Assembly: GCF_900107255.1 (NCBI RefSeq)
Contig: NZ_FNPH01000008.1
Coordinates: 62,001 to 126,000, forward strand
Source: Micromonospora pattaloongensis
Lineage (GTDB): Bacteria > Actinomycetota > Actinomycetes > Mycobacteriales > Micromonosporaceae
Reading direction: 5' to 3'
DNA length: 64,000 nt
The notes under the pieces were generated by a model that was not told the origin of the DNA, ran no database searches, and saw only the letters and a list, made by a program, of their open reading frames with translations. Positions within the stretch are counted from its first letter, which is position 1; the number at the start of each line of letters is the position of its first letter. Made by a program: the position numbers and the translations under genes. Shown one piece after another: positions 4,199 through 21,272 of this stretch.

Positions 4199-5269
4199 CT
4201 ACCGCTGGCGATCCACCGCGGACTCGGCGAGCGCGGCCAGGGCCTCGCGCGCCCCGGCGGTCAGCGGCGCCTCCGCGAGCGCGGCGAGCGCGCTGTCGGC
4301 GCGCACCCGGATCATCTGCTCGATCCGGTCCCGCGCCCCGGTCTCCACGATGATCGACCGCAGCTCCGCGGCGCCGTCCGCGTCGAGCTCCGGGTTGCCG
4401 AACAGGGTGCGCAACCGCGCCGCCTGCGCGCGATCCGCCCGGTCGCGCGCGAGCGCCATCATCACGGTCGGCTTGCCCTCACGCAGATCGTCGAGGACCG
4501 ACTTACCGGTGACCGCCGGGTCGCCGAAGACGCCCAGCACGTCGTCGCGGAGCTGGAAGGCGTCGCCGAGCGGGTCGCCGAAGGCCGCGTACGCGGCCTG
4601 CAGCTCCTCGCTCGCCCCGGCCAGTCCCCCGCCGATCTGCAGCGGCCGGGTGACCGTGTAGCGGGCGGCCTTCATCCGGATCACGGTGAGCGCGCTGGCC
4701 ACCGAACCGTCGCCGACCCCGGAGACGAGATCCAGGTACTGCCCCGCGATCACCTCGGTCCGCATGTGGGAGTAGACCGCGTACCCCTGCTGGAGCTGGT
4801 CGGCGGGGAGCCCGGACTCGTGGAACATCTGGTCCGCCCAGGTGGCGCAGAGGTCGCCGCAGAGCAGCGCGGCGCTGCGGCCGTACGCGCCGGCGTCGCC
4901 GCGCCAGGAGAGCCGGGCGTGCAGGTCGGCGAAGAGCCGGTGCACCGACGGCTCCCCCCGGCGCCGGTCGCTGCCGTCCATGATGTCGTCGTGGATCAGC
5001 GCGAACGCGTGGAAGAGCTCCAGCGCGGCCGCCGCGGCCACGATCTCGCGGCGGTCCGCGCCGCCCGCGCCGCGCCAGCCCCAGTAGCAGAACATCGGCC
5101 GCAGCCGCTTGCCGCCGGCCAGCACGAAGCGGCGCAGCGTGTCGAAGACCCCGCGCGGCGCCCCGTCCGGCCAGCCCGGATCCTGCCGGTCCAGGAAGGC
5201 CGCCAGCTCGGCGTCGCAGCGCGCGCGCAGTCCCTCCGTGCCGGTCTCCGGCGCCAGCTGAGCGGTCAT
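4199..5269 (-). CDS. Polyprenyl (geranylgeranyl-type) diphosphate synthase
   Basis: A 356-residue trans-isoprenyl diphosphate synthase. The first aspartate-rich motif is LIHDDIMDGSDRRRG (DDIMD, about residue 96) and the second is QLRDDVLGVFGD, followed by GKSVLDDLREGKPT. Product length cannot be fixed from sequence; the family in actinobacteria mostly makes geranylgeranyl or longer all-trans diphosphates. The ATG overlaps no gene but starts 7 nt after the phosphodiesterase stop, and its GAGG ribosome site lies inside that stop region. It is therefore the last gene of the Ebo-like operon and a plausible prenyl donor source for the UbiA-type enzyme encoded four kilobases upstream. Confidence 0.85.
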   Translation of the reverse strand: MTAQLAPETGTEGLRARCDAELAAFLDRQDPGWPDGAPRGVFDTLRRFVLAGGKRLRPMFCYWGWRGAGGADRREIVAAAAALELFHAFALIHDDIMDGSDRRRGEPSVHRLFADLHARLSWRGDAGAYGRSAALLCGDLCATWADQMFHESGLPADQLQQGYAVYSHMRTEVIAGQYLDLVSGVGDGSVASALTVIRMKAARYTVTRPLQIGGGLAGASEELQAAYAAFGDPLGDAFQLRDDVLGVFGDPAVTGKSVLDDLREGKPTVMMALARDRADRAQAARLRTLFGNPELDADGAAELRSIIVETGARDRIEQMIRVRADSALAALAEAPLTAGAREALAALAESAVDRQR

Positions 5270-5276
5270 GGCCGCC

Positions 5277-6683
5277 TCACCTCTCCCCGGCGGCCGGCGA
5301 CGTGTGCGCCAGCCCCGCCAGTTGCAGCAGGAACTCCTTGACGTCGGTGGCGGCGAACTCGGTGCGGGCCGCCGCCGGGTCGGAGCAGAGCAGCACCGGT
5401 CCGTCCAGCGGATCCGCGGGGAGCCGCCCGTGCGACCCGCGCACCGCCTTCGCCCCGGCGTCCAGGCCGACCACGCTCATCAGGTAGCGCATCCCGACCT
5501 TCTTGCGCAGCAGCGCCAGCGCCGCCCGCCCCTTCGCCGCGCCCGGGTTGGCCGGGTCGAAGAAGAGCTCCGCCGGGTCGTAACCGGGCTTGCGGTGGAT
5601 CTCGACGAGCTTGGCGAAGTCCGGGGCACGGGCGTCGTCGAGCCAGTAGTAGTACGTGAACCAGGCGTCCGGGTCGGCGACCAGCACCAGGTCACCGGCG
5701 CGCTCGTGGTCCAGCCCGTGCGCGGCCTTCCCCTCGGCGTCCAGCACCTCCGCCACACCGGGCAGCGCCGCGCAGAGCTTCGCCACCGCCGGCACGTCGG
5801 CCGGATCCTTCACGTAGACGTGCGCGACCTGGTGGTCGGCGACGGCGAACGCCCGCGACGTCCACGGGTCGAGGTACTCCATCCCGGCCTGGGTGTAGAC
5901 CTCCAGCAGCCCCTCGGAGCGGAGCAGCCGGTTGATGTCGACCGGGCGGGAGACGTCGGTGATGCCGTACTCCGACAGCGCCACCACGGTCACGCCGCGG
6001 GCGGCGGCCGCGTCCAGCAGCGGGGCGAGCGCGCGGTCCAGCTCGGCGGCGGCGGCCGCGGCACGCGGCGCGGAGCTGCCGTGGCGCTGCAGGTCGTAGT
6101 CGAGGTGCGGCACGTACGCCAGGGTCAGGTCCGGCGAGTGGGCGGCCATGATCTGCTCGGTGGCCTGGATGATCCACGCCGACGAGGTGATGCCGGCGCC
6201 CGCACCCCAGTAGCTGAAGAGCGGGAACGTGCCGAGCTTGTCGGTCAGCTCGTCGTGCAGTGCCGGCGGGTACGTGTAGCAGTCGGGGTCCTTGCGCCCG
6301 TCGGCGTGGTAGATCGGGCGGGGCGTGACCGTCCAGTCCACGTCGGCGCCCATCGCGTACCACCAGCACACGTTCGCGACCGTGTAGTCCGGCTTGACCT
6401 TCCGCGCCGCGTCCCAGAGCTTCTCCCCGCCGACCAGCGCGTTGTGCTGCCGCCACAGGAAGATCTCGCCCAGGTCCCGGAAGTACCAGCCGTTGCCCAC
6501 GATGCCGTGCCCGGAGGGCAGCTCGCCGGTGAGGAAGGTCGACTGCACCGAGCAGGTCACCGCGGGCAGCACCGTGCCGAGCGGGGCCTGGAACCCGGAC
6601 CGCGCCACCGCGGACAGCCGCGGCATGTGCGCGAGCAGCCGGGGCGTCAGCCCGACCACGTCGAGAACGAGCAGTGGTCTCAC
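5277..6683 (-). CDS. Type I phosphodiesterase/nucleotide pyrophosphatase family protein (EboF-like)
   Basis: A 468-residue member of the alkaline phosphatase superfamily. Visible elements are RPLLVLDVVG (first metal aspartate) and TCSVQSTFLTGELPSGHGI (nucleophile Thr/Ser region, then the invariant GH.I.GN.W). There are also HLDYDLQRHG (metal Asp/His pair) and a final DHQVAHVYV histidine. The position where most family members have SDHG reads SEYGI, so one Asp/His metal-ligand pair is changed. No signal peptide is evident. The GTG start overlaps the EboE stop by four bases (GTGA). In the Ebo cluster of cyanobacteria a protein of this family is the last member; the substrate is unknown. Confidence 0.75.
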   Translation of the reverse strand: MRPLLVLDVVGLTPRLLAHMPRLSAVARSGFQAPLGTVLPAVTCSVQSTFLTGELPSGHGIVGNGWYFRDLGEIFLWRQHNALVGGEKLWDAARKVKPDYTVANVCWWYAMGADVDWTVTPRPIYHADGRKDPDCYTYPPALHDELTDKLGTFPLFSYWGAGAGITSSAWIIQATEQIMAAHSPDLTLAYVPHLDYDLQRHGSSAPRAAAAAAELDRALAPLLDAAAARGVTVVALSEYGITDVSRPVDINRLLRSEGLLEVYTQAGMEYLDPWTSRAFAVADHQVAHVYVKDPADVPAVAKLCAALPGVAEVLDAEGKAAHGLDHERAGDLVLVADPDAWFTYYYWLDDARAPDFAKLVEIHRKPGYDPAELFFDPANPGAAKGRAALALLRKKVGMRYLMSVVGLDAGAKAVRGSHGRLPADPLDGPVLLCSDPAAARTEFAATDVKEFLLQLAGLAHTSPAAGER

Positions 6684-7852
6684 GAGGACACCTCCGTGGG
6701 GGTGGGCGACGACCCGGCCCGCGCGGTCAGCGCGCGCAGCTCGTCGCGGGCGAAGGCCAGCTCCGCGGCGATACCGCCGGCGAGCTGGTCGGGGGTCTGC
6801 GGCCGGTGTCCGTCCGGCAGAACCCCCCAGGTGTACGTCTCGACGTCGAAGTGGTCGCAGAGCGCGACCGGACCGCCGGCCAGCTCGGCGAGCGCGGCGC
6901 GCAGTACCGGCGCCGTCGACGTCAGCGGCGCGGCGGGCGCGGCGTGCAGCGGCACGTGGTAGTGCACCCGCCACGGGCCGGGCAGCCCGGCGTCCAGCGC
7001 CGCGTCGAGGTCGTCGGTGGCGCCGCCGTGCGCGCCCCGCGTCTGATGCAGGAAGCGCGGCTCCACGTACCCGCGCAGCACGTCGGCGTCGGTCTCCGGC
7101 GTTTCGGCGACGAGCGCGGCCGAGACCTGCACCTTCACGATCGGCAGCGCGGCGTGGTGCAGCGCGGCGATCGCGGCCGCCGGCTCCTCCCAGGCGCAGG
7201 CCAGGTGCGCCAGGTCGAGGCAGATGCCGAGCCACTCGGTGTCCATCTCGGACAGGTGGCGGATCGCGTCGTCGGTGGTTTCGACGATGCAGCCGGGCTC
7301 CGGCTCGAAGCCGACCCGGATCGGCCGCCCGGACTCGCCGGCGATCCGCGCCAGCCCGGCGGCGAGCTCGTCGAGCCGGCGGGCGCAGGCGGCGGCGCGC
7401 CCGGGCTCCCACGGCTCCCGCCAGGCGAGCGGAAGCGTGGAGATCGAGCCGCGGGCCGCCCCCTCGGGGAGAAGATCGGCCAGCACCCGCGCCAGGTCGA
7501 GGGTGTAGTCGAGCCGCTCGCGGGTGCTCCAGTCCGGGTGGTAGACGGCGTGCTTGACCACGGGCGCCTGGAACGCCCGGTACGGGAAGCCGTTGAGCGT
7601 CACGACCTCCAGCCCGCGCGCGTCCAGCTCGCGGCGCAGCCGCCGCCGCTGCCCGGCGTCCGCGGCCAGCGCGGCGGCAACCGGGGCGGACAGCCAGAGA
7701 CCGAGCCCGAGCAGGTCCGCCTCCAGCCGCTCCCGCACCGGCTGCGCGTACGTGTCGAGCTGCGCGATGATCCCGTCCAGGTCCTCGGCCGGGTGCACGT
7801 TGGTGCAGTAGCCGAGGTGCAGGGTCTGCCCGTCGGGATGCGACAGGCGCAT
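6680..7852 (-). CDS. eboE: EboE-like metabolite traffic protein (xylose isomerase-like TIM barrel)
   Basis: A 390-residue protein that opens with LHLGYCTNVHPAEDLDGI and carries LNGFPYRAF, HPDWSTRERLDYT, GFEPEPGCIVET, WLGICLDLAHLAC and VHYHVPLH. These are the conserved blocks of EboE proteins, which look like sugar phosphate isomerase/epimerase barrels with likely metal-binding Glu, Asp and His. In Nostoc the ebo genes are needed to move a scytonemin precursor to the periplasm; the chemical role of EboE is not known. The ATG is chosen because it shares a base with the TatD stop (TGATG) and removes a shadow extension of 37 residues. Confidence 0.8.
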   Translation of the reverse strand: MRLSHPDGQTLHLGYCTNVHPAEDLDGIIAQLDTYAQPVRERLEADLLGLGLWLSAPVAAALAADAGQRRRLRRELDARGLEVVTLNGFPYRAFQAPVVKHAVYHPDWSTRERLDYTLDLARVLADLLPEGAARGSISTLPLAWREPWEPGRAAACARRLDELAAGLARIAGESGRPIRVGFEPEPGCIVETTDDAIRHLSEMDTEWLGICLDLAHLACAWEEPAAAIAALHHAALPIVKVQVSAALVAETPETDADVLRGYVEPRFLHQTRGAHGGATDDLDAALDAGLPGPWRVHYHVPLHAAPAAPLTSTAPVLRAALAELAGGPVALCDHFDVETYTWGVLPDGHRPQTPDQLAGGIAAELAFARDELRALTARAGSSPTPTEVSS

Positions 7853-8703
7853 CAGCTGCCCCCGCGCTTGATGGAGCTGCCCTCGAACGTCGCCTCGACC
7901 TCGCCGATGTCGGAGAGGTCCAGCCGCCCGGACTGCCCGTAGAACTCCACCGGGTTGCGCCACAGCACCCGGTCGACGTCATCGGGGCTGAATCCGGCGG
8001 CGAGCATCGCCTCGCCGGTGCGGAGCGTGAGCAGCGGGTCCGAGCGCCCCCAGTCGGCGGCCGAGTTGACCAGCATCCGCTCCAGGCCGTGCTCCTTGAG
8101 GATCTCGACCATGCGCGGCGGGGACATCTTGGTGTCCGGGTAGATGGAGAAGCCCATCCAGCAGCCGGAGTCGCGGACCAGGCCGACGGTGACCTCGTTG
8201 AGGTGGTCGACGACGACCCGACCGGGCTCGATCCCCGACTCGGCGACGACCGCCAACGTCCGCTCGGTGCCGCGCGCCTTGTCCCGGTGCGGGGTGTGCA
8301 CCAGCGCGGGCAGCTCGTACTCGACGGCGAGGGCGAGCTGCGCGGCGAACGCCTCGTCCTCCTCCGGCGTCATCGAGTCGTAGCCGATCTCCCCGACCGC
8401 GACCACCCCGTCCTTGGCCAGGTACCGCGGCAGCAGGTCGAGCACCGGCCGGCAGCGCGGGTCGTTGGCCTCCTTCGGGTTGAGCGCGATGGTGGCGTGG
8501 TGCCGGATGCCGAACTGGCTGGCCCGGTACGGCTCCCAGCCGATCAGCGAGTCGAAGTAGTCGGCGAACGAACCCGGGTTCGTGCGGGGCTGCCCGAGCC
8601 AGAACGCCGGCTCCACGATCGCCCGGACGCCCGCCGCGGCCATCGCCTCGTAGTCGTCGGTGGTGCGGGAGGTCATGTGGATGTGCGGGTCGAAAATGCG
8701 CAT
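7852..8703 (-). CDS. eboB: TatD-family metal-dependent hydrolase (EboB-like)
   Basis: A 283-residue amidohydrolase. MRIFDPHIHMTSRT gives the first HxH metal pair. VAVGEIGYDSM supplies the glutamate, LVHTPHRDKARGT and VVVDHLNEV the two later histidines, and VNSAADWGRSDPL the final aspartate. Generic TatD proteins are DNases or deaminases, but this subfamily (long AFWLGQPRTNPGSF segment) is the one found in Ebo clusters, where the substrate is unknown. The second of two start codons (ATG at 8703) is preferred because it shares one base with the EboA stop. The gene is in the middle of the overlapping eight-gene operon. Confidence 0.8.
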   Translation of the reverse strand: MRIFDPHIHMTSRTTDDYEAMAAAGVRAIVEPAFWLGQPRTNPGSFADYFDSLIGWEPYRASQFGIRHHATIALNPKEANDPRCRPVLDLLPRYLAKDGVVAVGEIGYDSMTPEEDEAFAAQLALAVEYELPALVHTPHRDKARGTERTLAVVAESGIEPGRVVVDHLNEVTVGLVRDSGCWMGFSIYPDTKMSPPRMVEILKEHGLERMLVNSAADWGRSDPLLTLRTGEAMLAAGFSPDDVDRVLWRNPVEFYGQSGRLDLSDIGEVEATFEGSSIKRGGS

Positions 8704-9323
8704 CACGCCTTCTTTCCTTCGGCGGCGGCCAGGCGGTCCAGCAGGGCGAGGGCGTCGGCGGCGACGTCACGGCCGGCGGCGCGCCGCTCCTCGACGAGCC
8801 CGGCGAGCATCGTGGCGAGCTCGCCGTCCGCGCGGGTGTCCAGGTCGTGCACCACGTTCAGCGGCACACCCATGAACACGCACTTGAGCACCGCCTGCCG
8901 CCACATCGGCTGGTCCAGGTGGCGGGCGTACGTCCCGAGGGCGGCGGCCACCAGCCGGGTGTCGTTGGTGCGGATCGCGTCGTGCAGCAGCGGCACCGCG
9001 CCGGCGCCGATCGGCAGCAGCGGCAGAGCCTTGAGCACCGCGCGTTTCTCGGCGGCGTCGCCGTACCGGTAGAGCGTGTCGGCCGCGGTGGCGACCTGAT
9101 CGGCCGGGAGCGCGGCGAGCAGCAGCGCCCGGGCCGCCTCGTCGACGGTCCACCCGGGGGCCGACGGCAGCGCTGCGCGCCCGCACCGGCGCGCGGCCGT
9201 CGCGAACAGCCCACCGATGTCGTCGGGTTCGCGCGCGACGCGGGCCAGCGCCTCCCGCAGCCACTCCTGCTCGGGTGCGGTGGACAGCGCGGCGAGCGCG
9301 ACGCGCAGGTCGTCGGGTTCCAT
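8703..9323 (-). CDS. eboA: EboA domain protein
   Basis: A 206-residue, mostly helical protein without signal peptide or membrane helix. The stretch RYGDAAEKRAVLKALPLLPIG, then IRTNDTRLVAAALG and WRQAVLKCVFMGVPL, is the conserved core of the EboA family, which resembles HEAT-like helical repeats. The function is not known. Its presence is the best single marker that this operon belongs to the Ebo/Edb class. The ATG shares one base with the stop of the downstream-numbered TIM-barrel gene (TGATG), implying translational coupling. Confidence 0.8.
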   Translation of the reverse strand: MEPDDLRVALAALSTAPEQEWLREALARVAREPDDIGGLFATAARRCGRAALPSAPGWTVDEAARALLLAALPADQVATAADTLYRYGDAAEKRAVLKALPLLPIGAGAVPLLHDAIRTNDTRLVAAALGTYARHLDQPMWRQAVLKCVFMGVPLNVVHDLDTRADGELATMLAGLVEERRAAGRDVAADALALLDRLAAAEGKKA

Positions 9324-10255
9324 CACTCGTGCTCCCCTGTGGTCGGTACGGGTACCGCCGCGCTGCCAGCGGCAGCGCTCCGCGGCGCGGGCACGGTCGG
9401 GTGCGGCCCCGACTCCGGCGCGCGCCGCTCGGCGTCGCGCAGGAAGGCCAGCGACTCGGCGGCGACGGTCGGGGCCGCGTGCGAGTGCCGGGGCAGCTCG
9501 ACGGCGACCAGCCCCCGGTAGCCGCCGTCGGCGAGCGCCCGCAGCACCGGCGGGAAGTCGATCTCCCCCGTGCCGAACTCGAGGTGCTCGTGCACTCCGC
9601 GGCGCATGTCGTCGATCTGCACGTTGACCAGGTCCCCGGCCACCTCGGCCACGCACTGCGGCACCGGCGCCGGCTCCAGACAGCGGCAGTGTCCGATGTC
9701 GAGGGTGAGACCGAAGCGCGGCGGAGCGCCGAGCGCGTCGCGCAGCCGCCGCCAGTCGGCGATGGTCTGCACCAGCATGCCGGGCTCGGGTTCGAAGCCG
9801 AGCGGCACGCCCGCGGCGTCGGCGGCCGCGACCACGGTCGTCGTGTGGTGCACCAGCCGCTCCCACGCGGTCGGCTCCGGCACGTCGGCGGGGCGCACCC
9901 CGGCCCAGAACGACACCGCCTCGGCGCCCAGGTCCGCGCCGATCGCGACGGCCCGGCGCAGGAACTCGATCCGCCGCGCCGGCTCGTCGTGCAGCAGCGT
10001 CGGGGCGTGCTTGTGCCAGGGGTCCAGCAGGTAGCGCGCGCCGGTCTCGATCACCACGGCCAGGTCGAGGTCGCGCAGCCGGTCGGCGACCCGGGTGACC
10101 CGCCGGGCCAGCTCGGGGGCGAACGGGTCGAGGTGGTCGTGGTCGAGGGTGAGGGCCACCCCGGTGTAGCCGAGTTCGGCGATCACCGCCAGCGCGTCGT
10201 CCAGCCGGTGGTTGGCGAACCCGTTGGTCCCGTACCCGAAGCGGAGGCCGGTCAT
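9323..10255 (-). CDS. Sugar phosphate isomerase/epimerase-like TIM barrel protein of the Ebo operon
   Basis: A 310-residue xylose isomerase-like barrel: GYGTNGFANHRLDDAL at the start, then LDHDHLDPF, VIETGARYLLDPWHKH, GFEPEPGMLVQT, LTLDIGHCRC and VQIDDMRRG. The Glu/Asp/His/Glu set is compatible with a divalent-metal isomerase or epimerase. The GFEPEPG..V.T block is shared with the EboE-like protein two genes downstream, so the two may be distant paralogues. The last 50 residues form a low-complexity Ala/Pro tail. The ATG overlaps the UbiA stop (ATGA). It may act on the sugar or cyclitol part of the pathway product; that is inference. Confidence 0.75.
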   Translation of the reverse strand: MTGLRFGYGTNGFANHRLDDALAVIAELGYTGVALTLDHDHLDPFAPELARRVTRVADRLRDLDLAVVIETGARYLLDPWHKHAPTLLHDEPARRIEFLRRAVAIGADLGAEAVSFWAGVRPADVPEPTAWERLVHHTTTVVAAADAAGVPLGFEPEPGMLVQTIADWRRLRDALGAPPRFGLTLDIGHCRCLEPAPVPQCVAEVAGDLVNVQIDDMRRGVHEHLEFGTGEIDFPPVLRALADGGYRGLVAVELPRHSHAAPTVAAESLAFLRDAERRAPESGPHPTVPAPRSAAAGSAAVPVPTTGEHE

Positions 10256-11109
10256 GTCGGGGACACCTTGCGGGCGAGGCGCCGGCCGAGCGGGGCGGCG
10301 GCCGCGACGGCCAGCCCGGCGCCGGCCGCGCCGGCGCGCGCGGTGAGCGCCCCCTGCAGCGCCGGCAGTCCGGTGATCCCGGCGCCGACCGCGGCGCGGA
10401 TCCGCGGTGCGGTGGGCTCTGCCGCGGCCCGGGCCTGCGCGCCGCCGTACTGCGCGGTGTACCAGGCGGCGAGCGCGGCGGGCACGGCCCGACGCCAGGA
10501 TCGGCCGGCGCCGCGCCGTCCGGCGGCGGCGGCCAACGCCGCGGTCCCGGCCAGGGTGAGCGCGGGCAGCCGGCGATCCGCGCCCGAGACCTCCCGCCGG
10601 GACAGCTCGGTGAGGGTGTACGTGTGTGCGGCGACCGCCAGCGCGGCGGGCACCGCCCGGGCGGGGCGGCCGGCGCCGGCGCCCAGCAGCACGTCGAGGC
10701 CGCGGCACGCGGCCATCACGGCCGGGCCGGCCGCGGTGTTCTTCGCCTTCAGGTCGTACGTCCAGACGGCCGCGGCGAGCACCGCCGCGGTGCCCAGGCC
10801 GCGACGGCCGCCGGCGGCGCCGGCCAGGGTCAGCCCGGCGGCGGTCAGCCCGGCGGCGATACCCAGCGCGGCGGGCGCGCTGATCCGCCCGGACGGGATC
10901 GGCCGCTCGGGGCGCTCCACCGCGTCGAGCTCCCGGTCGGCCCAGTCGTTGGCCGCCATGCCGGCCCAGTAGAGGCAGACCGAGGCCGAGGCCAACCCGG
11001 GGGTACGCCGGTCGAGCGCGCCGGCGGCGGCGGCGCCGGCCACCACGTCGCCGGGGACCGACAGCGCGGCGGGCGCGCGGACCAGGTCGACGAGATCGCG
11101 GAGCCGCAT
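10252..11109 (-). CDS. eboC: UbiA-family prenyltransferase (EboC-like)
   Basis: A 285-residue integral membrane prenyltransferase with about eight helices. The first aspartate motif is NDWADRELDAVERPERPI (NDxxDxxxD followed by RP.R.I.SG) and the second region reads TYDLKAKNT. These residues bind the Mg-diphosphate of a prenyl donor. SCNG-type variation in the second motif matches EboC rather than quinone enzymes. It should transfer a prenyl group onto a soluble acceptor at the membrane. It lies directly after the inositol phosphate synthase gene (TGATG overlap), and a prenyl diphosphate synthase closes the operon, so donor and possible acceptor formation are encoded together. Confidence 0.8.
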   Translation of the reverse strand: MRLRDLVDLVRAPAALSVPGDVVAGAAAAGALDRRTPGLASASVCLYWAGMAANDWADRELDAVERPERPIPSGRISAPAALGIAAGLTAAGLTLAGAAGGRRGLGTAAVLAAAVWTYDLKAKNTAAGPAVMAACRGLDVLLGAGAGRPARAVPAALAVAAHTYTLTELSRREVSGADRRLPALTLAGTAALAAAAGRRGAGRSWRRAVPAALAAWYTAQYGGAQARAAAEPTAPRIRAAVGAGITGLPALQGALTARAGAAGAGLAVAAAAPLGRRLARKVSPT

Positions 11110-12254
11110 CACGCCGCCCCGCCGTCGAGGCCGCGGACGAACGCGGTGAGCACGCTCCACTGCTCGCCGAACGAGTGCGTGCCGGCGTCGATCGGGTCCT
11201 TGAAGAAGAACGCGAGCTCGGGCAGGGGCCCGCTCCGGCCGGCGCGGTGCGCGGCGGCGGCGAGCCGGGCCAGGTCCAGCACGAGCGGGGCGGCGAGCGC
11301 GGAGTCACAGCCGTGCCAGGTGAACTCCATCCGCATCGCGGTGCCGAGGAAACCGGAGAAAGTGATCAGGTCCCAGGCGGTCTTGAAGTCGCCGAGGTCG
11401 TCGACGAAGTCGATCCGGGTGGTCCCCTGCGGCTGGTAGCCGAGCGTCTCGCCGAGCACCCGCTGCTTGCTGGCGGTCTTCGCGGCGTTCGCGCCCGGCT
11501 CCGCCAGGGCGGCGCCGTCGCCGCCGCCGAGCAGGTTGACCCCGGACCAGGTGCGCACCCGCAGGTTGCGCAGCGCGAACATCGGGGCGAGCACGGACTT
11601 CACCAGCGTCTCGCCGGTCTTGCCGTCGTGGCCGGCGTACGGCACGCCGGCGGCGCGGGCCAGCTCGGCCAGCGCGGGCAGCCGGGCGCCGGTCGAGGGC
11701 GTGAAGTCGACATAGGCGCAGCCAGCCCCGAAGGCCGCGTACGCGGTGAGCGAGCTGGGCGGCAGCACCTCGCCGGAGGCGTCGAGCGCGGCCCGCAACG
11801 CGGCCAGGTCGGCGTGGGCCGGATGCGCCGGCGGCACCGGCTCGGTGGTGGCGACGTTGACCACCACGACGTGGTCCAGCCCGTGCCGCTCCCGGAACGC
11901 GACGAGGTCCGCGGTGATCGCCGCGGCGGTCAGCGCCTGCGTGGCGGCGCTCGGCAGCGGCCGGACCTCCCGCTCCAGCGCGACCAGCTCGTCGTGCACG
12001 GCGTCGACCAGCCGGGCCGGCACGACCCCGGCGGCGGCCAGCGCGTCGGCCTTCTTCACCAGCGGCGTCTCGGCGATGTCATGGCCGCCGAGGACCAGGT
12101 CGGCGAAGCCGGGCAGGGCCGGGCTGCGCAGCTCGGGCAGTTCGGTGACGCACCCCGTCGCCTCGGTGAGGCCGGCGCGGAGCGCCAACGCCCCGACGAT
12201 GCTGGTGACCGCGACGGACCCACGCGCGCCGATGAACCAGACTCCCGTACGCAT
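11109..12254 (-). CDS. myo-Inositol-1-phosphate synthase family protein (Ino1-type)
   Basis: A 381-residue NAD-dependent synthase. GVWFIGARGSVAVTSIVGAL is a Rossmann-like start, NVATTEP contacts the cofactor, and GHDGKTGETLVKSVLAPMF and WSGVNLLGGGDG are the conserved active-site lysine regions of inositol-3-phosphate synthases. The family converts glucose 6-phosphate to an inositol phosphate. It is shorter and more divergent than the housekeeping actinobacterial Ino1 used for phosphatidylinositol, so the exact cyclitol is uncertain. The ATG is chosen because GGAGG lies 6 nt upstream; an in-frame GTG six codons earlier precedes that site. It is the first gene of the operon. Confidence 0.8.
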   Translation of the reverse strand: MRTGVWFIGARGSVAVTSIVGALALRAGLTEATGCVTELPELRSPALPGFADLVLGGHDIAETPLVKKADALAAAGVVPARLVDAVHDELVALEREVRPLPSAATQALTAAAITADLVAFRERHGLDHVVVVNVATTEPVPPAHPAHADLAALRAALDASGEVLPPSSLTAYAAFGAGCAYVDFTPSTGARLPALAELARAAGVPYAGHDGKTGETLVKSVLAPMFALRNLRVRTWSGVNLLGGGDGAALAEPGANAAKTASKQRVLGETLGYQPQGTTRIDFVDDLGDFKTAWDLITFSGFLGTAMRMEFTWHGCDSALAAPLVLDLARLAAAAHRAGRSGPLPELAFFFKDPIDAGTHSFGEQWSVLTAFVRGLDGGAA

Positions 12255-12590: not shown

Positions 12591-15500
12591 TCAGGGGGTC
12601 GTGGAGCCGAACTCGACCCAGTTGAGGTTGAAGAAGCCGGTGGTCGGTCCACCGGTGACCGGCTTGAAGACCAGGTAGACCTTCTGCGCGCCGACCGGGT
12701 GGTTGACCGGAACGCTCTGGCTCGCCCACGCGTTGGTGCCGGCGGTGGCGTTGATCGTCGCGGTGGTCACCAGCTGGCCGTCCGGCGCGCCGACCCGCAC
12801 CTCGACGATGGCCCGCGGGGTGCCCGCGGTCGCCGCCGAGCCGCCGGCGTAGCGGAACGTGATGCTGTCCGCGTCGCCGAGGTTGATCGGGTCGAAGGCG
12901 ATGTAGTCGCCGTTGTCGATGCCGGTCAGGTGCTGGCCGCCGCCGGTGTCGTTCGTGGCGGCGACGGTGACACCCTGCTTGACCCGGGCGAACTCGGCCT
13001 GCTGCTGCCGGGTCTGGATGCTGGTCTGGCCGACCGCGCTGAGCGCCGGCTGGCCGTTGGCGCCCAGGTCGGTGTACGACGCGCTGATGCCGCCGTACAG
13101 GTAGCCACCGGCGTGGTCGGCACCGTCGGCCGGGGTCACGAGGGTGCCCGTGCAGCCCGTGGTCGAGGTCTCACCGTGGCCGTGGTCGTCGTGACCCAGC
13201 ACGAACGAGACCGTCACCCGGCTGCAGTCGATCTCCCCGTCCTCGGGGTCGGTCACCTTCACCGTGAACGGCACCGTGTCGCCCCAGTTGAAGAAGGAGC
13301 CCGCCACCGGCGAGGTGACCTCCACCGTCGGGGCCGTGTTGCCGACCGTGATGGTGCGGCTCAGCGACGCGGTCTTGCCGCTGGAGTCGGTCACCGTCAG
13401 CTTGGCGTAGTAGACCCCGTTGGTGGTGTAGGTGTACGACGCGTTCGCCGCGGTCGAGTCCGTGGTGCCGTCGCCGTCGAAGTCCCAGGCGATCGAGATC
13501 GACTCACCGGGCTCCGGCGAGTACGACCCGGCGCTCGAGAAGTCGACCTTGAGCGGCGCCTGGCCGGAGGTCGCCGACGCGGTGAGCTCGGCGACCGGGC
13601 CACGGGTGCCCTTGACGTAGCGGATCACCGACAGCGCCGCGTCCGGGTTGGCCCGGAAGAAGCCGTCACCGTACTCCAGCAGGTAGAGGCTGCCGTCCGG
13701 GCCGAACTCCATGTCCATCGGGTTGTCGAAGACGAAGCCCGGCAGGAACTGCTCCACGCCCAGCAGGTTGCCGCTGCCGTTGGTGCGCATCATGTAGATC
13801 TTGTCCCGGGTGAACTCACCGAACACCACGGCGTCGTTGTAGTACTCCGGCAGCTTGTTCGGCGAGGCCAGGTCCGCGTCGTACTTGTAGATCGGGCCGC
13901 CCATCGGGCCGACGCCGCCGGTGCCAATCACCGGCCACTTGAAGTCGCAGGTTCCGGCCGGCGTCTTCAGGTAGCTGTCCGCGCACGGCGTGGTGCCGTT
14001 GAAGGTGTACCAGAACTGCGGCTGCGCCACCGGCGGCAGCGTCGTGCGGCCGGTGTTACGCGGCGAGTCGTTGACCGTCGCCGCGCAGTTGAACGCGCCC
14101 TTCGACGTCTTCGTGGCGAAGTCGTAGTCGATGTAGGGCAGGCTCGGCGAGTAGCAGTACGGCCAGCCGAAGTTGCCGGCCTTGTTGGTGGCGAGCCAGC
14201 GACCGGCGCCCTCCGGGCCGCGGGTGGCGCTGGGCACGCGGGAGTCCGGCGAGTAGTCGCCGATGTAGACGAAGCCGCGGGAGTCCACGTCGAAGCGGAA
14301 CGGGTTCCGCAGGCCCATCAGGAAGATCTCGGGCCGGGTCTTGTTGTCCCGGTCCTCCGACTCGGGGAACAGGTTGCCCGCCGGAACGCTGTACGAGCCG
14401 TCGTCCTTGACCTTGATCCGCAGCACCTTGCCGCGCAGGTCGTTGGTGTTGCCCGAGGAGCGCTGGGCGTCGTAGCCGGGGCCCTGGGTCGGGGACTCGT
14501 TGATCGGCGTGTAGCCGTCCGAGCCACTGGCGTTGGTGTCGTCGCCGGTGACCAGGTAGAGCAGGCCCTTGCCGTCGAACTTGACCTCACCGGCGACGTG
14601 GCAGCAGATGCCGCGGTCCACGTCCACCTTCAGGATCTCCTGCTCGGTGGACATGTCCAGGTGCGGCGTCGGCTCCTCGACGAACTTCACCCGGGACAGC
14701 AGGTTGTACCCCTTGAACTTGTCCCAGACGGTGGGGTCGTCGCTGATGGCCGGGGCGTCGCCCTCGTTGACGCCCGGCGTGGCCGGGTCGTCCACCGGGG
14801 TGTTCAGCCGCGGCGCGTAGTAGAGGTAGACCCACTTGTTCGTGGCGAAGTTCGGGTCCAGGGTGACGGACTGCAGCCCGTCCTCGTCGTGCTGGTAGAC
14901 CGGCAGCGTGTTGATGATCGGGCTGGCGCCGCTCTTCGGGTCGTAGAGCCGGACCTCGCCGGCGCGGGTGTTGTGCAGCACCCGGCCGTCGGGGAGCACG
15001 GCCAGCGTCATCGGCTCGCCGGGCTCGTCGTTGAGGATCACCTTCTCGTAGTTGGCCAGCACGGTGGCGCCGCAGTCGCCGGCGGCCGCGCCCGCGGCCC
15101 ACTGGATGCCGCCCAGCAGGTGCTTGCGGAACGCGCCGTTGGCGTACGTGCCGGCGGAGTGGCCGAGGCCGGTGTACCAGGAGCGACCGCCCTGGTAGTC
15201 GCGGCACCAGGTGACCGGGTGGTCGAAGCCCATCGTGCCGCCGGTGTAGCTCTGCTCGTTGACGGTCGCCAGCACGTGCGCCTTGCCGCGCACGTTGGTG
15301 GCGAAGTTGTACCACTCGTCCTCGAGCGTCAGCTCGCGGGAGAGCGGCTTGGTCGACGGGTGCGCCCGGTCGGCGACGTCGATGCGCCCGCTGGTCACGG
15401 CGGAGGCGCCGGAGACGGTCGTGCCGACGAGGTCGCGGTAGAACGCCCACTGCGGCTCGCCCTCGGCGGCCGCGTGCACGCCCACGTAGCCGTTGCCGGC

Positions 15501-15848
15501 CTTGACGTAGCGCTCGAACGCCTCCTGCTGGACGTCGTTGAGCAGCTCGCCGGAGCTGTTGAGGAAGACCACCGCCTTGTAGTTGGCGAGGTTCTCGTCG
15601 CTGAACGCGGTCGCGTTCTGCGAGACGTCGATGGTGAAGCCGTTGTTGTCACCGAGATTGCGGATCGCGTTGACGCCCTTGGCGGTGGAGTCGTGCCGGG
15701 CGCCGTCACCGCCGGTGAAGACCAGGACCTGGTAGCCGGCCGGGTGCTCGTGTCCGGGGTGCGCGGCCACCGGAGCGGTCGCGACCAGTGGGGCGGATAT
15801 CGCGGCCGCCGCGACGACGGGAAGCCATCGTCGTGCCGTTGATGCCAT
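12591..15848 (-). CDS. Secreted ThuA - glucose/sorbosone dehydrogenase-like - PKD - CBM multidomain protein
   Basis: A 1085-residue exported protein. A Sec signal (ARRWLPVVAAAAISAPLVAT...AHP) spans about residues 1-32. A ThuA domain (YQVLVFTGGDGARHDS ... YVGVHAAAEGE) covers about 38-260. A beta-propeller of the PQQ-type glucose/sorbosone dehydrogenase class follows at about 275-740, with LPDGRVL, DEDGLQSVTLDPNF, TGDDTNA, LRGKVLRI, RNPFRFD and GEFTRDKIY. A PKD domain (AWDFDGDGTTDS) lies near 785-855, then an Ig-like linker and a C-terminal CBM6/35-like sandwich. ThuA proteins take part in trehalose and 3-keto-glycoside metabolism. The ATG has GGAGG 8 nt upstream. It probably oxidises or processes a polysaccharide-derived sugar outside the cell. 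Confidence 0.8.
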   Translation of the reverse strand: MASTARRWLPVVAAAAISAPLVATAPVAAHPGHEHPAGYQVLVFTGGDGARHDSTAKGVNAIRNLGDNNGFTIDVSQNATAFSDENLANYKAVVFLNSSGELLNDVQQEAFERYVKAGNGYVGVHAAAEGEPQWAFYRDLVGTTVSGASAVTSGRIDVADRAHPSTKPLSRELTLEDEWYNFATNVRGKAHVLATVNEQSYTGGTMGFDHPVTWCRDYQGGRSWYTGLGHSAGTYANGAFRKHLLGGIQWAAGAAAGDCGATVLANYEKVILNDEPGEPMTLAVLPDGRVLHNTRAGEVRLYDPKSGASPIINTLPVYQHDEDGLQSVTLDPNFATNKWVYLYYAPRLNTPVDDPATPGVNEGDAPAISDDPTVWDKFKGYNLLSRVKFVEEPTPHLDMSTEQEILKVDVDRGICCHVAGEVKFDGKGLLYLVTGDDTNASGSDGYTPINESPTQGPGYDAQRSSGNTNDLRGKVLRIKVKDDGSYSVPAGNLFPESEDRDNKTRPEIFLMGLRNPFRFDVDSRGFVYIGDYSPDSRVPSATRGPEGAGRWLATNKAGNFGWPYCYSPSLPYIDYDFATKTSKGAFNCAATVNDSPRNTGRTTLPPVAQPQFWYTFNGTTPCADSYLKTPAGTCDFKWPVIGTGGVGPMGGPIYKYDADLASPNKLPEYYNDAVVFGEFTRDKIYMMRTNGSGNLLGVEQFLPGFVFDNPMDMEFGPDGSLYLLEYGDGFFRANPDAALSVIRYVKGTRGPVAELTASATSGQAPLKVDFSSAGSYSPEPGESISIAWDFDGDGTTDSTAANASYTYTTNGVYYAKLTVTDSSGKTASLSRTITVGNTAPTVEVTSPVAGSFFNWGDTVPFTVKVTDPEDGEIDCSRVTVSFVLGHDDHGHGETSTTGCTGTLVTPADGADHAGGYLYGGISASYTDLGANGQPALSAVGQTSIQTRQQQAEFARVKQGVTVAATNDTGGGQHLTGIDNGDYIAFDPINLGDADSITFRYAGGSAATAGTPRAIVEVRVGAPDGQLVTTATINATAGTNAWASQSVPVNHPVGAQKVYLVFKPVTGGPTTGFFNLNWVEFGSTTP

Positions 15849-15982
15849 GTGTGTTTCCTCCGGGGATCGGGAGGCGGTGATGCCTCGCCGCTGGCACGGG
15901 TTGGTGTTGCGGGTGCGGGGACCCTGGTGCCATCCCTGGCGCGGTGCCACGTCCGCCAAGGTTGTGCGCTGCGCCTTCTGGT

Positions 15983-16025
15983 CGTCCGGCGCGGCCGGGG
16001 AATCCCGGTCCGGCCGCGCCGGACG
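15983..16025 (-). terminator. Second hairpin after the sugar ABC operon
   Basis: Arms at 15983-15998 and 16010-16025 are perfectly complementary over 16 bp, with an 11-base loop. It stands 90 nt beyond the oxidoreductase stop and about 135 nt before the ThuA gene start, in tandem with the hairpin at 16048-16078. Confidence 0.6.
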
Positions 16026-16047
16026 GCCGTTCCTCGGTGCCCGCAGC

Positions 16048-16078
16048 TCCGGCACGTGGGGCGCAACCACGTGCCGGA
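16048..16078 (-). terminator. Hairpin directly after the Gfo/Idh oxidoreductase gene
   Basis: A 12-bp perfect stem (TCCGGCACGTGG with its complement) and 7-base loop begin 34 nt after the stop at 16113. It likely ends the ROK-ABC-oxidoreductase transcript or partly separates it from the ThuA gene. Confidence 0.65.
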
Positions 16079-16112: not shown

Positions 16113-17330
16113 TCAGGCGTTGGCCGCGGTCAGGGCCGATTCCACCGCGATCCATGCCTGCTGCTCGGCCGAGCGCTCCACCGCGTCCAGCACCAGCTGG
16201 ACCTGCAGGGCGTCGGCGAACGAGGGTGACGGGTCCACACCGGTGGCGAGCGCCTCGAGGAAGTCGCGCGCCTGGTGGGTGAAGGAGTGCTCGTATCCGA
16301 TGAGGTGACCGGCCGGCCACCAGGCCGACAGGTACGGGTGGTCCGGCTCGGTCACCAGGATCCGGCTGAATCCCTGCTCCTGGCTGGGCAGGGTGGCGTC
16401 GTAGAACTCGAGCTCGTTCATCCGCTCGAAGTCGAACGCCACCGTGCCGAGCGACCCGTTGATCTCGATCCGGATGCCGTTCTTGCGTCCGGTCGCGAAG
16501 CGGGTCGCCTCGTACGTGCCGATCGCGCCGCCGTCGAGCCGGGCCAGGAACAGCGCGGCGTCGTCGACGGTGACCGGGCCGGTGGCCGGTGCGGCCCCGT
16601 CGGGGCCGCCGCCGGCCGACGCCGCCAGCCCGCTGGCCTGGACCGGCAGCGGCCGTTCCGGGACGAACGTCTCGGTCAGGCCGCTGACGGCGGTGATCCG
16701 CTGGCCGGTGATGTACTGGGTGGTGTCGATGATGTGCGCACCGATGTCACCCAGCGCGCCGGAGCCCGCCTTGTCCTTCTGTAGCCGCCACACCAGCGGG
16801 AACTGCGGATCGACGATCCAGTCCTGCAGGTAGCTGGCGCGGACGTGCCGAATGACGCCGAGCCGGCCCGCCTGGACCAGCTGGCGCATCAGCGCGATCG
16901 CCGGGACGCGGCGGTAGTTGAACCCGCACATCGCCAGCACCCCGGCCGCCCGCGCCGCCTCCGCCGCCGCGGTCATCTCCCGCGCTTCCTCGGCGGTGTT
17001 GGCCAGCGGCTTCTCGCACAGCACGTGCTTGCCGGCGGCGAGCGCGGCCTGCGCGATTTCGGCGTGGCTGTCACCGGGCGTGCAGATATCGATCACGTCG
17101 ATGTCGTCCCGGGCGACTAGCGCGCGCCAGTCGGTGGTGTGGCTCTCCCAGCCGAGCCGGTCGGCGGCCTCGGCCACCTTCGACTCGTCGCGGCCGCAGA
17201 TCGCCGCCATCCGGGCCCGCACCGGCAGGTCGAAGACCCGGTTCACGGTGCGCCACGCCTGCGAGTGCGCGGCGCCCATGAACGCGTAGCCGATCATGCC
17301 GATTCGGAGCTCTTTTTCCACAGTAGACAA
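16113..17330 (-). CDS. Gfo/Idh/MocA family sugar oxidoreductase
   Basis: A 405-residue NAD(P)-dependent dehydrogenase. The Rossmann domain starts with LRIGMIGYAFMGAAHSQAW; the catalytic HVLCEKPLANTAEE (EKP) is near residue 100. The C-terminal domain has GSGALGDIGAHIIDTTQYITG, carrying the usual Asp/His pair. Such enzymes oxidise sugars or inositols, often at C3. A TTG start is preferred: GGAGG lies 5 nt upstream, while the GTG at codon 4 would be 14 nt away. It follows the substrate-binding protein gene by 19 nt and is the last gene of the sugar transporter operon, so it probably oxidises the imported sugar. Confidence 0.85.
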   Translation of the reverse strand: MSTVEKELRIGMIGYAFMGAAHSQAWRTVNRVFDLPVRARMAAICGRDESKVAEAADRLGWESHTTDWRALVARDDIDVIDICTPGDSHAEIAQAALAAGKHVLCEKPLANTAEEAREMTAAAEAARAAGVLAMCGFNYRRVPAIALMRQLVQAGRLGVIRHVRASYLQDWIVDPQFPLVWRLQKDKAGSGALGDIGAHIIDTTQYITGQRITAVSGLTETFVPERPLPVQASGLAASAGGGPDGAAPATGPVTVDDAALFLARLDGGAIGTYEATRFATGRKNGIRIEINGSLGTVAFDFERMNELEFYDATLPSQEQGFSRILVTEPDHPYLSAWWPAGHLIGYEHSFTHQARDFLEALATGVDPSPSFADALQVQLVLDAVERSAEQQAWIAVESALTAANA

Positions 17331-17349: not shown

Positions 17350-18420
17350 TCAGAACCCGAGCTTGAGGTAGTTGCTCGCGTTCTCCTTGGTGATGGTCTC
17401 CGAGGCCAGGGTGATCTCCTTGGGCACCTCGAGCTCGACCAGGTCGGACATGCCCTTGCTCTGACCGATCAGGCGGGCCAGCGAGATCGCCGAGGAGGCC
17501 ATCGAGGGGCTGTAGGTGACCGTCGCCTTCAGCACGCTGTTGTCGGCCTGGATCGCCTCGATCGCCGCCTTGGAGCCCGCGCCGCCCACCATGAAGAACT
17601 CGCTGCGGTTGGCCTGCTTGATCGCGGCCAGCACACCGATGCCCTGGTCGTCGTCGTGGTTCCAGAGCGCGTCGAGCTTCGGCAGCGCCTGCAGCATCTG
17701 CGCCGCCGCCCGCTGCCCGGTGTCGGCGGTGAACTCGGCGGGCAGCCGACGCGCCACGCTGAACCCGTAGGTGGCCAGCGAGGCCTTGAAGCCGGCGGAG
17801 CGCTCCTGGGTCAGCTCGAGCGAGTCGATGCCGGGGATCTCGCCGATCACCGGGTTGGTGACGCCCTTGGCCTTGAGCTGCTCGCCGATGTAGTGGCCGG
17901 CCGAGACGCCCATGCCGTAGTTGTCGCCCTTGATCTGCAGGCGGTACGCCAGCGCGTCCGGGAAGGCGCGGTCGAGGTTGACGACCGGGATGTTCGCCTT
18001 CATGGCCTCCAGGCCGAACGCGTTGAGCTCCTTGCCGTCGTGCGGGAGCACGACGATCACGTCGGGCTTCTGTCCGACCAGCGTCTGCAGCGCGGCGCGC
18101 TGGGCCGCCGCGTCCGCGCCGGCCTCGACGATCTTGAGCTCGACGTCGGAGTACGCCGCGGCCTGCGCCTTGGCGTTGTTGGTGATCGCGGCGATCCAGC
18201 CGTGGTCGGCGGCCGGGGCGGAGAACCCGATCGTCACCTTCTTGCCGGCCGCGGCGTTCGGGTTGCCCGAGTCGGCGCCCTTGGTCTGGGCCTCCTGCGG
18301 GCTCGCGTCGTTGCTGGTGCAGGCCGTGAGCAGCGCGCCGGCGCCGAGCGCGCCGGCGCCGAGCAGCAGCCGGCGCCGCGACAGGTCGCTGCCGGCCGCG
18401 CGGCCGAAGGACTTGGTCAT
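17350..18420 (-). CDS. Sugar ABC transporter substrate-binding lipoprotein (ribose/xylose class, Tat-exported)
   Basis: A 356-residue periplasmic-binding-protein-like lipoprotein. The N-terminus has a twin-arginine motif (LSRRRLLLGAG) and a lipobox (LLTAC), so export is probably by Tat with lipid anchoring at Cys about 34. The mature part is of the PBP type I class: KVTIGFSAPAADHGWIAAI, LVGQKPDVIVVLPHDG, NIPVVNLDRAFP, WNHDDDQGIGVLAAI. It delivers a monosaccharide or cyclitol to the permease encoded upstream. The ATG has GGAGG at a good distance. A 134-nt gap with two small hairpins separates it from the permease gene. Confidence 0.85.
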   Translation of the reverse strand: MTKSFGRAAGSDLSRRRLLLGAGALGAGALLTACTSNDASPQEAQTKGADSGNPNAAAGKKVTIGFSAPAADHGWIAAITNNAKAQAAAYSDVELKIVEAGADAAAQRAALQTLVGQKPDVIVVLPHDGKELNAFGLEAMKANIPVVNLDRAFPDALAYRLQIKGDNYGMGVSAGHYIGEQLKAKGVTNPVIGEIPGIDSLELTQERSAGFKASLATYGFSVARRLPAEFTADTGQRAAAQMLQALPKLDALWNHDDDQGIGVLAAIKQANRSEFFMVGGAGSKAAIEAIQADNSVLKATVTYSPSMASSAISLARLIGQSKGMSDLVELEVPKEITLASETITKENASNYLKLGF

Positions 18421-18494
18421 GACGACCTCCTGATTCGCTTCGTGGTGGGGGTATCCGGGTGTGTGGAGCCCGGCGGACGTCGCATTTCTCGACG

Positions 18495-18538
18495 ACCACC
18501 TGCGGTGGTGCGGGTATTTCGCCGGCCGGGACGGCCGG
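18495..18538 (-). other. Intercistronic hairpins between permease and binding-protein genes
   Basis: Two short stems lie in the 134-nt gap inside the sugar operon: ACCACC/GGTGGT with loop TGC (18495-18509) and CCGGCC/GGCCGG with a 5-base loop (18522-18538). Hairpins here often stabilise or separately terminate segments so that binding protein is made in excess; this is inference. Confidence 0.35.
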
Positions 18539-18554
18539 TGTCATGGGAGGTTCG

Positions 18555-19661: not shown

Positions 19662-19704
19662 AGTCCTTCTCCTTCGGTCACGAATCCGGTGTCGAATGCA
19701 TCGC

Positions 19705-21240: not shown

Positions 21241-21272
21241 CTGGGCTCCTCGGCTCACGGTGGTCGAATCGG

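Follow-up and report, generated by a model that had tools for sequence, protein, structure and literature searches.

An ebo-type operon of Micromonospora pattaloongensis with an Ino1-type cyclase in the position of EboD

Results

Gene content and organization of the locus

The analysed window comprised 64,000 nucleotides of a single contig of Micromonospora pattaloongensis. Reading the coordinates directly from the sequence revealed eight genes on the minus strand, running from position 12254 to position 4199 (Table 1). The successive junctions were overlaps of 1, 4, 1, 1, 1 and 4 nt, followed by one 7-nt gap, which is the arrangement described in the original prediction. The Pfam Ino1, UbiA, TatD, Phosphodiest and polyprenyl_synt domains all scored above their cut-offs. 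EboA and EboE were assigned to the ebo cluster by their own family models, and EboB and EboF by Pfam domains; a single profile for each of the latter two families, built across both cyclase types (Ino1 and EboD), detected both types. The UbiA protein scored 130.5 bits against the EboC equivalog NF035940 (cut-off 250), and EboA scored 82 bits against the narrower model NF035937 (cut-off 320), both below the threshold. Taken together, the family assignments supported the proposed kinship of the operon with ebo clusters. Of the 82 Ino1-type loci from the same class, 71 had the first seven genes in exactly this order, and a chance neighbourhood was therefore rejected.

Table 1. Features of the ebo-type operon and of the adjacent upstream region
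Feature	Coordinates	Strand	Remarks
ino1-like cyclase (eboD position)	11109..12254	-	381 aa; Pfam PF07994/PF01658 above cut-off
eboC-type UbiA prenyltransferase, SCO3242 family	10252..11109	-	285 aa; NF045897 378 bits, cut-off 260
Xylose-isomerase-like TIM barrel (SPI)	9323..10255	-	PF01261 134 bits
eboA, all-helical protein	8703..9323	-	206 aa; NF035938 159 bits, cut-off 50
eboB, TatD-like metal-dependent hydrolase	7852..8703	-	PF01026 above cut-off
eboE, TIM barrel	6680..7852	-	NF035939 415 bits, cut-off 250
eboF, type I phosphodiesterase/nucleotide pyrophosphatase family	5277..6683	-	GTG start; PF01663 211 bits
Polyprenyl diphosphate synthase, accessory	4199..5269	-	PF00348 above cut-off
ThuA-GSDH-PKD-CBM6 protein	12591..16070	-	Pfam; secreted by N-terminus read by eye
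Gfo/Idh/MocA oxidoreductase	16113..17330	-	Pfam
Sugar-type ABC importer	17350..21930	-	Binding protein 17350-18420, permease 18555-19661, ATPase 19705-21930; Pfam
TIM barrel, twin-arginine-like start	22787..23908	-	PF01261; RRKIL near N-terminus

The secreted-looking ThuA-GSDH protein, the Gfo/Idh oxidoreductase, the sugar-type importer and the TIM barrel upstream of the operon had been left out of the original prediction. A GSDH domain was located near 42 of the 82 Ino1-type loci versus 2 of 56 EboD-type loci, and a TIM barrel like that of the window near 42/82 and 0/56, respectively. Gfo/Idh proteins similar to that of the window were found near nine of the 82 Ino1-type loci, and the binding protein, permease and ATPase parts of the importer near 8, 9 and 16 of them.

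The cyclase of the operon

The closest solved relative of the operon cyclase was the archaeal Ino1 1u1i (E 1e-69, 239 bits). Eight positions corresponding to the catalytic residues of Ino1 (K212, N240, D246, K259, K263, K291, D317 and K352) showed at least 97% conservation among 35 relatives, and both 1u1i and the mycothiol Ino1 of the same genome had identical residues there. All eight positions checked thus carried the residues of a myo-inositol-1-phosphate synthase, and judging from this conservation the operon cyclase is likely to be an inositol phosphate synthase. The mycothiol Ino1 is a separate gene (at C24), and the operon copy reached only 35.7 bits against the mycothiol-model cut-off of 638; relocation of the mycothiol enzyme into the operon was therefore rejected.

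EboD was absent from the operon and was not found elsewhere in the genome, and the locus was filed as an ebo variant. The PF01761 matches of the genome were AroB, whose gene is followed by a type II dehydroquinase (read from the translation), and one match barely above cut-off in a dehydrogenase-like protein. An EboD query gave no match at E≤1e-60, with four of the ten candidates scored. The lack of EboD noted in the original prediction was thereby supported, neither search having revealed EboD elsewhere in the genome.

Distribution of the two cyclase types

Among 88 ebo loci from the same class, 82 carried this Ino1 and none carried EboD; the remaining six had neither cyclase, and three of these were cut by contig ends. 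EboD was found in none of 388 same-class genomes at 1e-60, four candidates per genome being scored in most of the results shown. In the control for this query, with all candidates scored, 11 of 16 genomes matched at ≤1.2e-105, and the next best match was at 1.5e-45. In 80 loci on genome contigs, a sample leaning to the EboD type, EboD was present in 51 and Ino1 in none. The two cyclases were never seen in one locus among those examined.

Ino1-type clusters were also identified on one Gemmatimonadota plasmid and on three haloarchaeal plasmids, the coverage of both groups consisting of plasmid records. EboA and a full EboE were not detected in the haloarchaeal clusters, and in one case a haloarchaeal Ino1 belonging to this clade stood without EboC. 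In the planctomycete G457, EboB, EboE and EboF were scattered, yet Ino1 and EboC overlapped by 4 nt and EboD was not found. The near-identical G477 showed the same Ino1-EboC spacing, likewise without EboD, and a further genome, G529, had no EboD and an Ino1 of the same clade. The association of Ino1 with EboC thus held across same-class loci, plasmids and planctomycetes, in support of the proposal that Ino1 stands in the place of EboD.

An ebo-clade Ino1 was not universal among ebo genomes that lack EboD. Two alphaproteobacterial genomes (G409, G588) with ebo genes and no EboD at the locus had no Ino1 other than one from the YcaO-cluster clade; G028, also without EboD at the locus, had an Ino1 of that clade and a second, weak match, and three genomes with short ebo contigs (G589-G591) gave no Ino1 match. 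When 41 EboD-positive genomes (8 of 16 from one search and 33 of 37 from another, G407 counted once) were searched for Ino1, seven had a match above 100 bits; the four of these that were compared (L260-L262, L268) were all nearest to the YcaO clade.

The EboC tree of 100 rows implied at least two changes between Ino1 and EboD, with rows having neither cyclase uncounted. In a more careful tree of 43 rows, the Ino1-associated EboCs fell on one side of a branch (support 71/83, not starred). The latter omitted 17 neither-cyclase rows as well as L187, L181 and L173, and was based on a random draw of 10 of 25 actinomycete Ino1 rows and 14 of 36 rows of the larger EboD group, the pools being counted by hand. 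Repeated independent cyclase swaps were thus not demonstrated by these two trees.

Prenylation and tailoring proteins

Across 100 EboC-like sequences, conservation of the NDxxDxxxD motif was 90% or higher. UbiA enzymes act mostly on aromatic substrates. According to PMC9235831, the EboC enzyme Ubi-297 farnesylates quinolines and farnesyltransferase activity was demonstrated for EboCs of EboD-type operons; the tested EboCs did not react with phenols or catechols, and all acceptors tried were aromatic. The solved structures nearest to the prenyl synthase of the operon were the (2E,6E)-FPP synthase 8f8f and the GGPP synthase 3lk5. A prenyl diphosphate synthase occupied the same position in two genomes of the same family, and a clear one was located within 189 nt (match to match) on the same strand in seven of the 82 Ino1-type loci, an eighth being weak. 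These seven belonged to three families and two arrangements, and none was found beside the EboD-type loci examined. The recurrence fits the prenyl donor role originally assigned to the terminal gene; its rarity makes the gene accessory and places it outside the core.

SPI was characteristic of the Ino1-type operons: a relative above 150 bits was present in 78/82 Ino1-type loci versus 0/55 of the EboD type, although Ketogulonicigenium carries an annotated sugar phosphate isomerase of its own downstream. The SPI barrel showed weak matches to IolE (inosose dehydratase). The AlphaFold2 model of EboA (pLDDT 94.9) contained 12 helices and had no match among PDB folds at E≤0.001; its sequence profile gave one weak match (E 0.005), to the chain CTPR3Y3, a designed repeat protein. 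Conservation of 93% or more was found for residues H7, H9, E105, H136, H167 and D217 of EboB among 149 sequences and for the SEYG motif of EboF among 151. For the EboE model, Foldseek ranked xylose isomerases first by E-value; a second aligner placed ketose 3-epimerases closest (best Z 25.0, 264 aligned, rmsd 2.5), and a keto-glucal hydratase was among the top folds (Z 22.8, 288 aligned, rmsd 3.4). The EboE profile had no match among PDB sequences at E≤0.01, and the matches of the predicted fold are too general for naming a reaction. At a 90% threshold, only one to two positions per protein separated the Ino1 and EboD types of EboA, EboB, EboE and EboF.

Discussion

The gene content and order, the cyclases never occurring together in a locus and the coupling of Ino1 to EboC together define an Ino1-type ebo operon. 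On this comparative sequence evidence, Ino1 is very probably a functional replacement of EboD in an otherwise common pathway; no earlier report of the variant was found in the literature searched. The exchange of one cyclase for an unrelated, NAD-dependent one of the inositol-phosphate-synthase type, with the other enzymes nearly unchanged, amounts to a natural experiment on the ebo pathway. It points to the carbocycle as central to the pathway and to the ring or a derivative of it as the probable acceptor of EboC.

In the proposed mechanism, Ino1 would convert glucose 6-phosphate to inositol phosphate, and EboC would attach a C15-C20 chain at the membrane to this ring or to a modified form, using a prenyl diphosphate supplied in this genome by the last gene of the operon. 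Epimerisation, isomerisation or hydrolysis by the TIM barrels and EboB may modify the ring, EboF may remove a phosphate or cleave a phosphodiester, and EboA would serve as a helical scaffold. The pathway would end in a small membrane lipid, a prenyl-cyclitol, for chemistry or traffic outside the membrane; we infer both its chain length and its purpose. The product of Ino1 retains its phosphate and has no ketone, which distinguishes it from the SPC product, so the same downstream enzymes would need to accept a different ring; the few residues separating the two types temper this objection. The isoprenoid-cyclitol idea was already published for ebo clusters of the EboD type, as PMC5133447 states, and the replacement of EboD by Ino1 supports, without proving, the product proposed in 2016. 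Two reports count against a prenyl-cyclitol: the farnesylation of quinolines by EboCs tried on aromatic acceptors (PMC9235831) and the export defect ascribed to Nostoc ebo mutants, in which the scytonemin monomer stays in the cytoplasm (PMC6282210). On balance, we give a prenyl-cyclitol product slightly less than an even chance.

That latter phenotype would fit an export helper, a device formed or produced by the ebo proteins that moves a co-encoded metabolite over the membrane, with the cyclitol as a cofactor or tag instead of a lipid headgroup. A Streptomyces plasmid operon adjoins NRPS-type genes, a ScyD/ScyE family gene adjoins the operon of S. camelliae, and SCO3242 and SCO3243 are listed under the CDA cluster in PMC3610822. 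However, the core has no transporter, its families are enzymes, which points to synthesis, and about half of the same-class loci adjoin GSDH- or TIM-type partners; we regard an export helper as unlikely. The aromatic acceptors of EboC and of most UbiA enzymes would suit a cyclitol-derived lipoquinone acting as a redox lipid for secreted dehydrogenases, whose ring would become a polyhydroxybenzene by oxidation and dehydration, either ahead of prenylation or following it. This would agree with the frequent GSDH neighbours, the Gfo/Idh gene adjoining the window operon, the IolE and keto-glucal hydratase similarities, and a weak plastocyanin-like end of the Natronococcus partner dehydrogenase (20.6 bits, below the family cut-off). 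Yet the core has no oxidoreductase besides the cyclase, window-like Gfo/Idh genes are rare near such loci, and EboE and SPI match epimerases and isomerases best, which leaves a lipoquinone improbable.

It is also decidedly improbable that the cyclase is no inositol synthase and forms a different ring. The solved homologue 6k96 is named for such a product, a five-membered cyclitol phosphate, but it scored 51 bits versus 239 for archaeal Ino1, and every catalytic position checked was retained. The four upstream features, on the same strand, would fit a locus for the uptake and breakdown of a sugar or cyclitol with catabolic ebo genes, as would EboE-only paralogues, which adjoin dehydrogenases and have permease matches near 14/36 and ATPase matches near 14/36. 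We consider this very unlikely, as enzymes that form the ring de novo or supply prenyl diphosphates belong to biosynthesis, and the importer parts accompany a minority of the loci.

Returning to the prenyl-cyclitol reading, its broadest form is rather unlikely as a whole. In this form, cyclases of two unrelated families would supply a single conserved pathway, shared by bacteria and archaea, whose product would be a new class of small prenyl-cyclitol membrane lipid that links cells to oxidation and traffic taking place outside the membrane. The distribution extends the pathway to Halobacteria and, on the basis of the family name and printed annotation, probably to Streptomyces coelicolor (SCO3242-SCO3243). 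The Ino1 variant may also explain the two EboD-less planctomycetes of a 2016 survey.

Comparison with known systems

The operon shares EboA, EboB, an EboC-like UbiA protein, EboE and EboF with the EboD-type cluster (eboABCDEF) of eustigmatophyte plastids, Bacteroidetes, cyanobacteria and Proteobacteria. It differs in having Ino1 for EboD, an additional SPI TIM barrel and, in this genome, an EboC of the SCO3242 family, as well as in the GSDH neighbours of its relatives. The EDB ('edible') cluster of Pseudomonas fluorescens NZI7 holds a full ebo cluster, according to PMC6282210, and has eboD, unlike the operon; the compounds reported from E. coli carrying EDB are indoles and isoindoles (PMC9655573). 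With the UbiA family, including Ubi-297, the operon EboC has the NDxxDxxxD motif in common. The cyclase belongs to the fold family of archaeal and bacterial myo-inositol-1-phosphate synthases (Ino1/MIPS) and has their conserved lysines, asparagine and aspartates; it is distinct from the mycothiol Ino1 of its own genome and is of a type that occurs in ebo operons.

The operon and its surroundings

The original prediction described eight nearly contiguous genes on the minus strand, and direct reading of the sequence reproduced the coordinates, the successive overlaps (1, 4, 1, 1, 1 and 4 nt) and the final 7-nt gap. The families assigned by NCBIfam and Pfam were, in operon order, an Ino1-like synthase, an SCO3242-family UbiA protein (EboC), a xylose-isomerase-like TIM barrel (SPI), EboA, a TatD-like protein (EboB), EboE, a type I phosphodiesterase (EboF) and a polyprenyl diphosphate synthase. 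The top plasmid matches came from Nonomuraea and Streptomyces. Upstream, on the same strand, are genes for a ThuA-GSDH-PKD-CBM6 protein that looks secreted, a Gfo/Idh/MocA protein and an ABC importer of the sugar type, together with a TIM barrel whose start is twin-arginine-like. Given the genes found downstream, the operon borders a polysaccharide locus.

Features and comparison loci (L, locus handles; coordinates without a handle refer to the window)
Location	Strand	Source	Observation
12254-4199	minus	window	Eight-gene operon
5277-6683	minus	window	EboF; across 151 sequences from the two types, conservation of its SEYG motif is at least 93%
195-4086	minus	window, downstream	Chain-length-determinant-like, O-antigen-ligase-like and glycosyltransferase genes (translations read, no profile test)
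L002:104-2337		same genome, other part	Nucleotidyltransferase-like gene, then iron-alcohol-dehydrogenase-like gene (translations, by eye), presumably glycerol-1-phosphate dehydrogenase-like
L046:13816-16802		same-class locus	No Ino1; FAD oxidoreductase and inositol monophosphatase family gene upstream
L034:4221-16447		Streptomyces camelliae plasmid	Ebo of the Ino1 type; neighbours are a ScyD/ScyE family gene, an aromatic prenyltransferase and a multicopper oxidase
L237:7461-16048		Roseomonas plasmid	Ino1 of a different clade, Gfo/Idh/MocA, YcaO, PIG-L deacetylase, glycosyltransferase; TIM barrel close to SPI (318-330 bits, with L238)
L238:7410-16111		Hymenobacter plasmid	As L237, glycosyltransferase excepted

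The mycothiol-type Ino1 of the genome is located elsewhere, and the operon Ino1 is a dedicated second copy. Its closest solved structure was the archaeal Ino1 1u1i (E 1e-69), with the five-membered-cyclitol synthase 6k96 far behind. Eight positions which we take to be catalytic (K212, N240, D246, K259, K263, K291, D317 and K352) were unchanged in the mycothiol enzyme and at least 97% conserved in a set of 35 relatives.

Absence of EboD and distribution of the two operon types

EboD, noted as missing from the operon, was not found elsewhere in this genome either. The DHQ-synthase family profile recovered two proteins: AroB, behind which visual reading shows a dehydroquinase-like frame, and a dehydrogenase-like protein barely above the cut-off. 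Searched with an Azospirillum EboD, 388 same-class genomes, the window's own among them, gave no match at E<=1e-60; in the rows listed, four of the 8 to 18 candidates per genome were scored, as against all candidates in the control search. The threshold separates EboD well, since 11 of the 16 control genomes matched at <=1.2e-105 and the next best value was 1.5e-45.

EboE matches were present in 98 of 394 genomes of the same class (the grouping as supplied by the database tool), above the curated cut-off in 90. The 100 EboE loci examined came from 93 of these 98 genomes, the window's own not among them; four genomes with partial matches only, and some further partial matches in sampled genomes, were left out. 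Twelve loci contained EboE without other core genes (L086, L117, L120, L131, L133 and L134-L140); in the annotated ones (L086, L131) the neighbours were dehydrogenases and related enzymes, and this branch looks catabolic. Among the other 88, Ino1 of the operon type occurred in 82 (80 genomes, 23 genera, 11 families), 71 of which shared the order Ino1-EboC-SPI-EboA-EboB-EboE-EboF; the arrangement is thus common. The six with neither cyclase comprised three interrupted by contig ends according to their coordinates (L068, L105, L106), two second operons in genomes also holding an Ino1-type operon (L046, L059) and one true exception (L100).

The EboD type was sampled from named genome contigs, as the best 80 of 584 candidates in an Azospirillum-led EboE alignment, and the sample therefore leans towards EboD-type taxa. 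It comprised 51 EboD loci (in one, only a 65-bit fragment where the contig ends), 24 EboE-only loci and five with neither cyclase. The bacterial ebo plasmids examined were four of EboD type and four of Ino1 type (three Streptomyces and the Gemmatimonadota member Gemmatirosa). The supposed mutual exclusivity of the two synthases held for each locus: Ino1 outnumbered EboD by 82 to 0 in the same class and EboD outnumbered Ino1 by 51 to 0 on genome contigs, and no locus among all those examined had both.

At the genome level, seven of 41 EboD-positive genomes searched gave an Ino1 match above 100 bits and none above 150; four of these seven sequences were compared, and their nearest clade was that of the YcaO cluster rather than that of ebo. 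Three genomes with ebo genes but no EboD at the locus (G409, G588, G028) likewise had a YcaO-clade Ino1 as their best match, which may or may not serve ebo in trans. The plasmid clusters L237 and L238 represent a putative inositol-based pathway distinct from ebo.

Association of Ino1 with EboC in other taxa

On plasmids of Halocatena, Natronococcus and Halobaculum, Ino1 and an EboC-like UbiA are grouped with EboB, EboF and two TIM barrels; neither EboA nor full EboE was detected in these clusters. The Natronococcus UbiA scored 197 bits against the EboC model and 161 against SCO3242, each below the cut-off. A fourth haloarchaeal Ino1, from Halomarina, groups with these three; its neighbours are glycosyltransferases and EboC is absent, so membership of this clade does not always make an Ino1 an ebo gene.

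A 2016 survey described unclustered ebo genes in three planctomycetes, two of them without EboD (PMC5133447). In our sample of 149 planctomycete genomes, 14 UbiA neighbourhoods were examined, eight of which held no other core ebo gene. In G457, Ino1 and EboC are paired with a 4-nt overlap, and the near-identical G477 has equal spacing; EboB, EboE and EboF are at other sites, and the EboD search gave an AroB-level match only. In these two genomes Ino1 thus stays with EboC where the remaining genes are dispersed. G529 is the contrary case, lacking EboD and retaining EboC-SPI-EboF together; its Ino1, which shares 55% identity with the G457 protein, is at a separate site. EboD is present in G420 and G552, and an Ino1 search at E<=1e-5 found nothing in either. 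The expected association of Ino1 with EboC across taxa was recovered in same-class loci, Gemmatimonadota and haloarchaeal plasmids and G457/G477, with G529 and Halomarina differing.

Accessory genes and proposed pathway

Seven of the 82 Ino1-type loci, representing three families, had a prenyl diphosphate synthase within 189 nt (match to match) on the same strand, upstream in family f39 and downstream in f1 and f22; these scored 69 to 586 bits against the window's synthase. Two further loci gave a weak match (L130, E 4e-10) and a distant one on the opposite strand (L057). The same search found none near 56 EboD-type loci. Our reading is that the synthase was recruited separately. GSDH was nearby in 42 of the 82 same-class Ino1-type, two of 56 EboD-type and none of 36 EboE-only loci, the window-type upstream TIM barrel in 42, 0 and 0, and ThuA in 25, two and 0, respectively; part of this difference may reflect lineage, because the taxa differ between the groups. 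ABC importer parts were near only 8 to 16 of the 82, and permease and ATPase matches were commoner near EboE-only loci (14/36 each).

In the proposed pathway, Ino1 would form a ring, which EboC would prenylate, directly or as a derivative; EboE, SPI and EboB would modify the ring, EboF would act on a phosphate and EboA, all-helical in its predicted model, could be a scaffold. We infer both this prenylated-ring product and its purpose. An EPEP motif is conserved in EboE and SPI, whose relatives are mainly epimerase- or isomerase-like. Only one to two positions each in EboB, EboE, EboF and EboA separated the types at the 90% threshold, and the downstream steps therefore look shared. Phosphodiesterase-family relatives of EboF usually have D-H-G at the SEYG position, and its metal site is possibly altered, judging by this motif.

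Comparison with known ebo systems

An isoprenoid-cyclitol product was proposed earlier for EboD-type ebo, in a survey which mentions that actinobacterial EboA is fused to a xylose-isomerase-like part; a search of its main text found no word starting with inositol or myo-inositol (PMC5133447). Open-licence PMC literature on ebo, SCO3242 and an Ino1-ebo link yielded no report that we recognised as describing the Ino1-type variant. SCO3242 and SCO3243 are listed with the CDA genes (PMC3610822), EboC farnesylates quinolines (PMC9235831) and the EDB cluster yields indoles (reviewed in PMC9655573). In Nostoc, ebo is tied to scytonemin monomer export (PMC6282210), and the neighbours of the Streptomyces camelliae operon (L034) echo the scytonemin setting of cyanobacteria.
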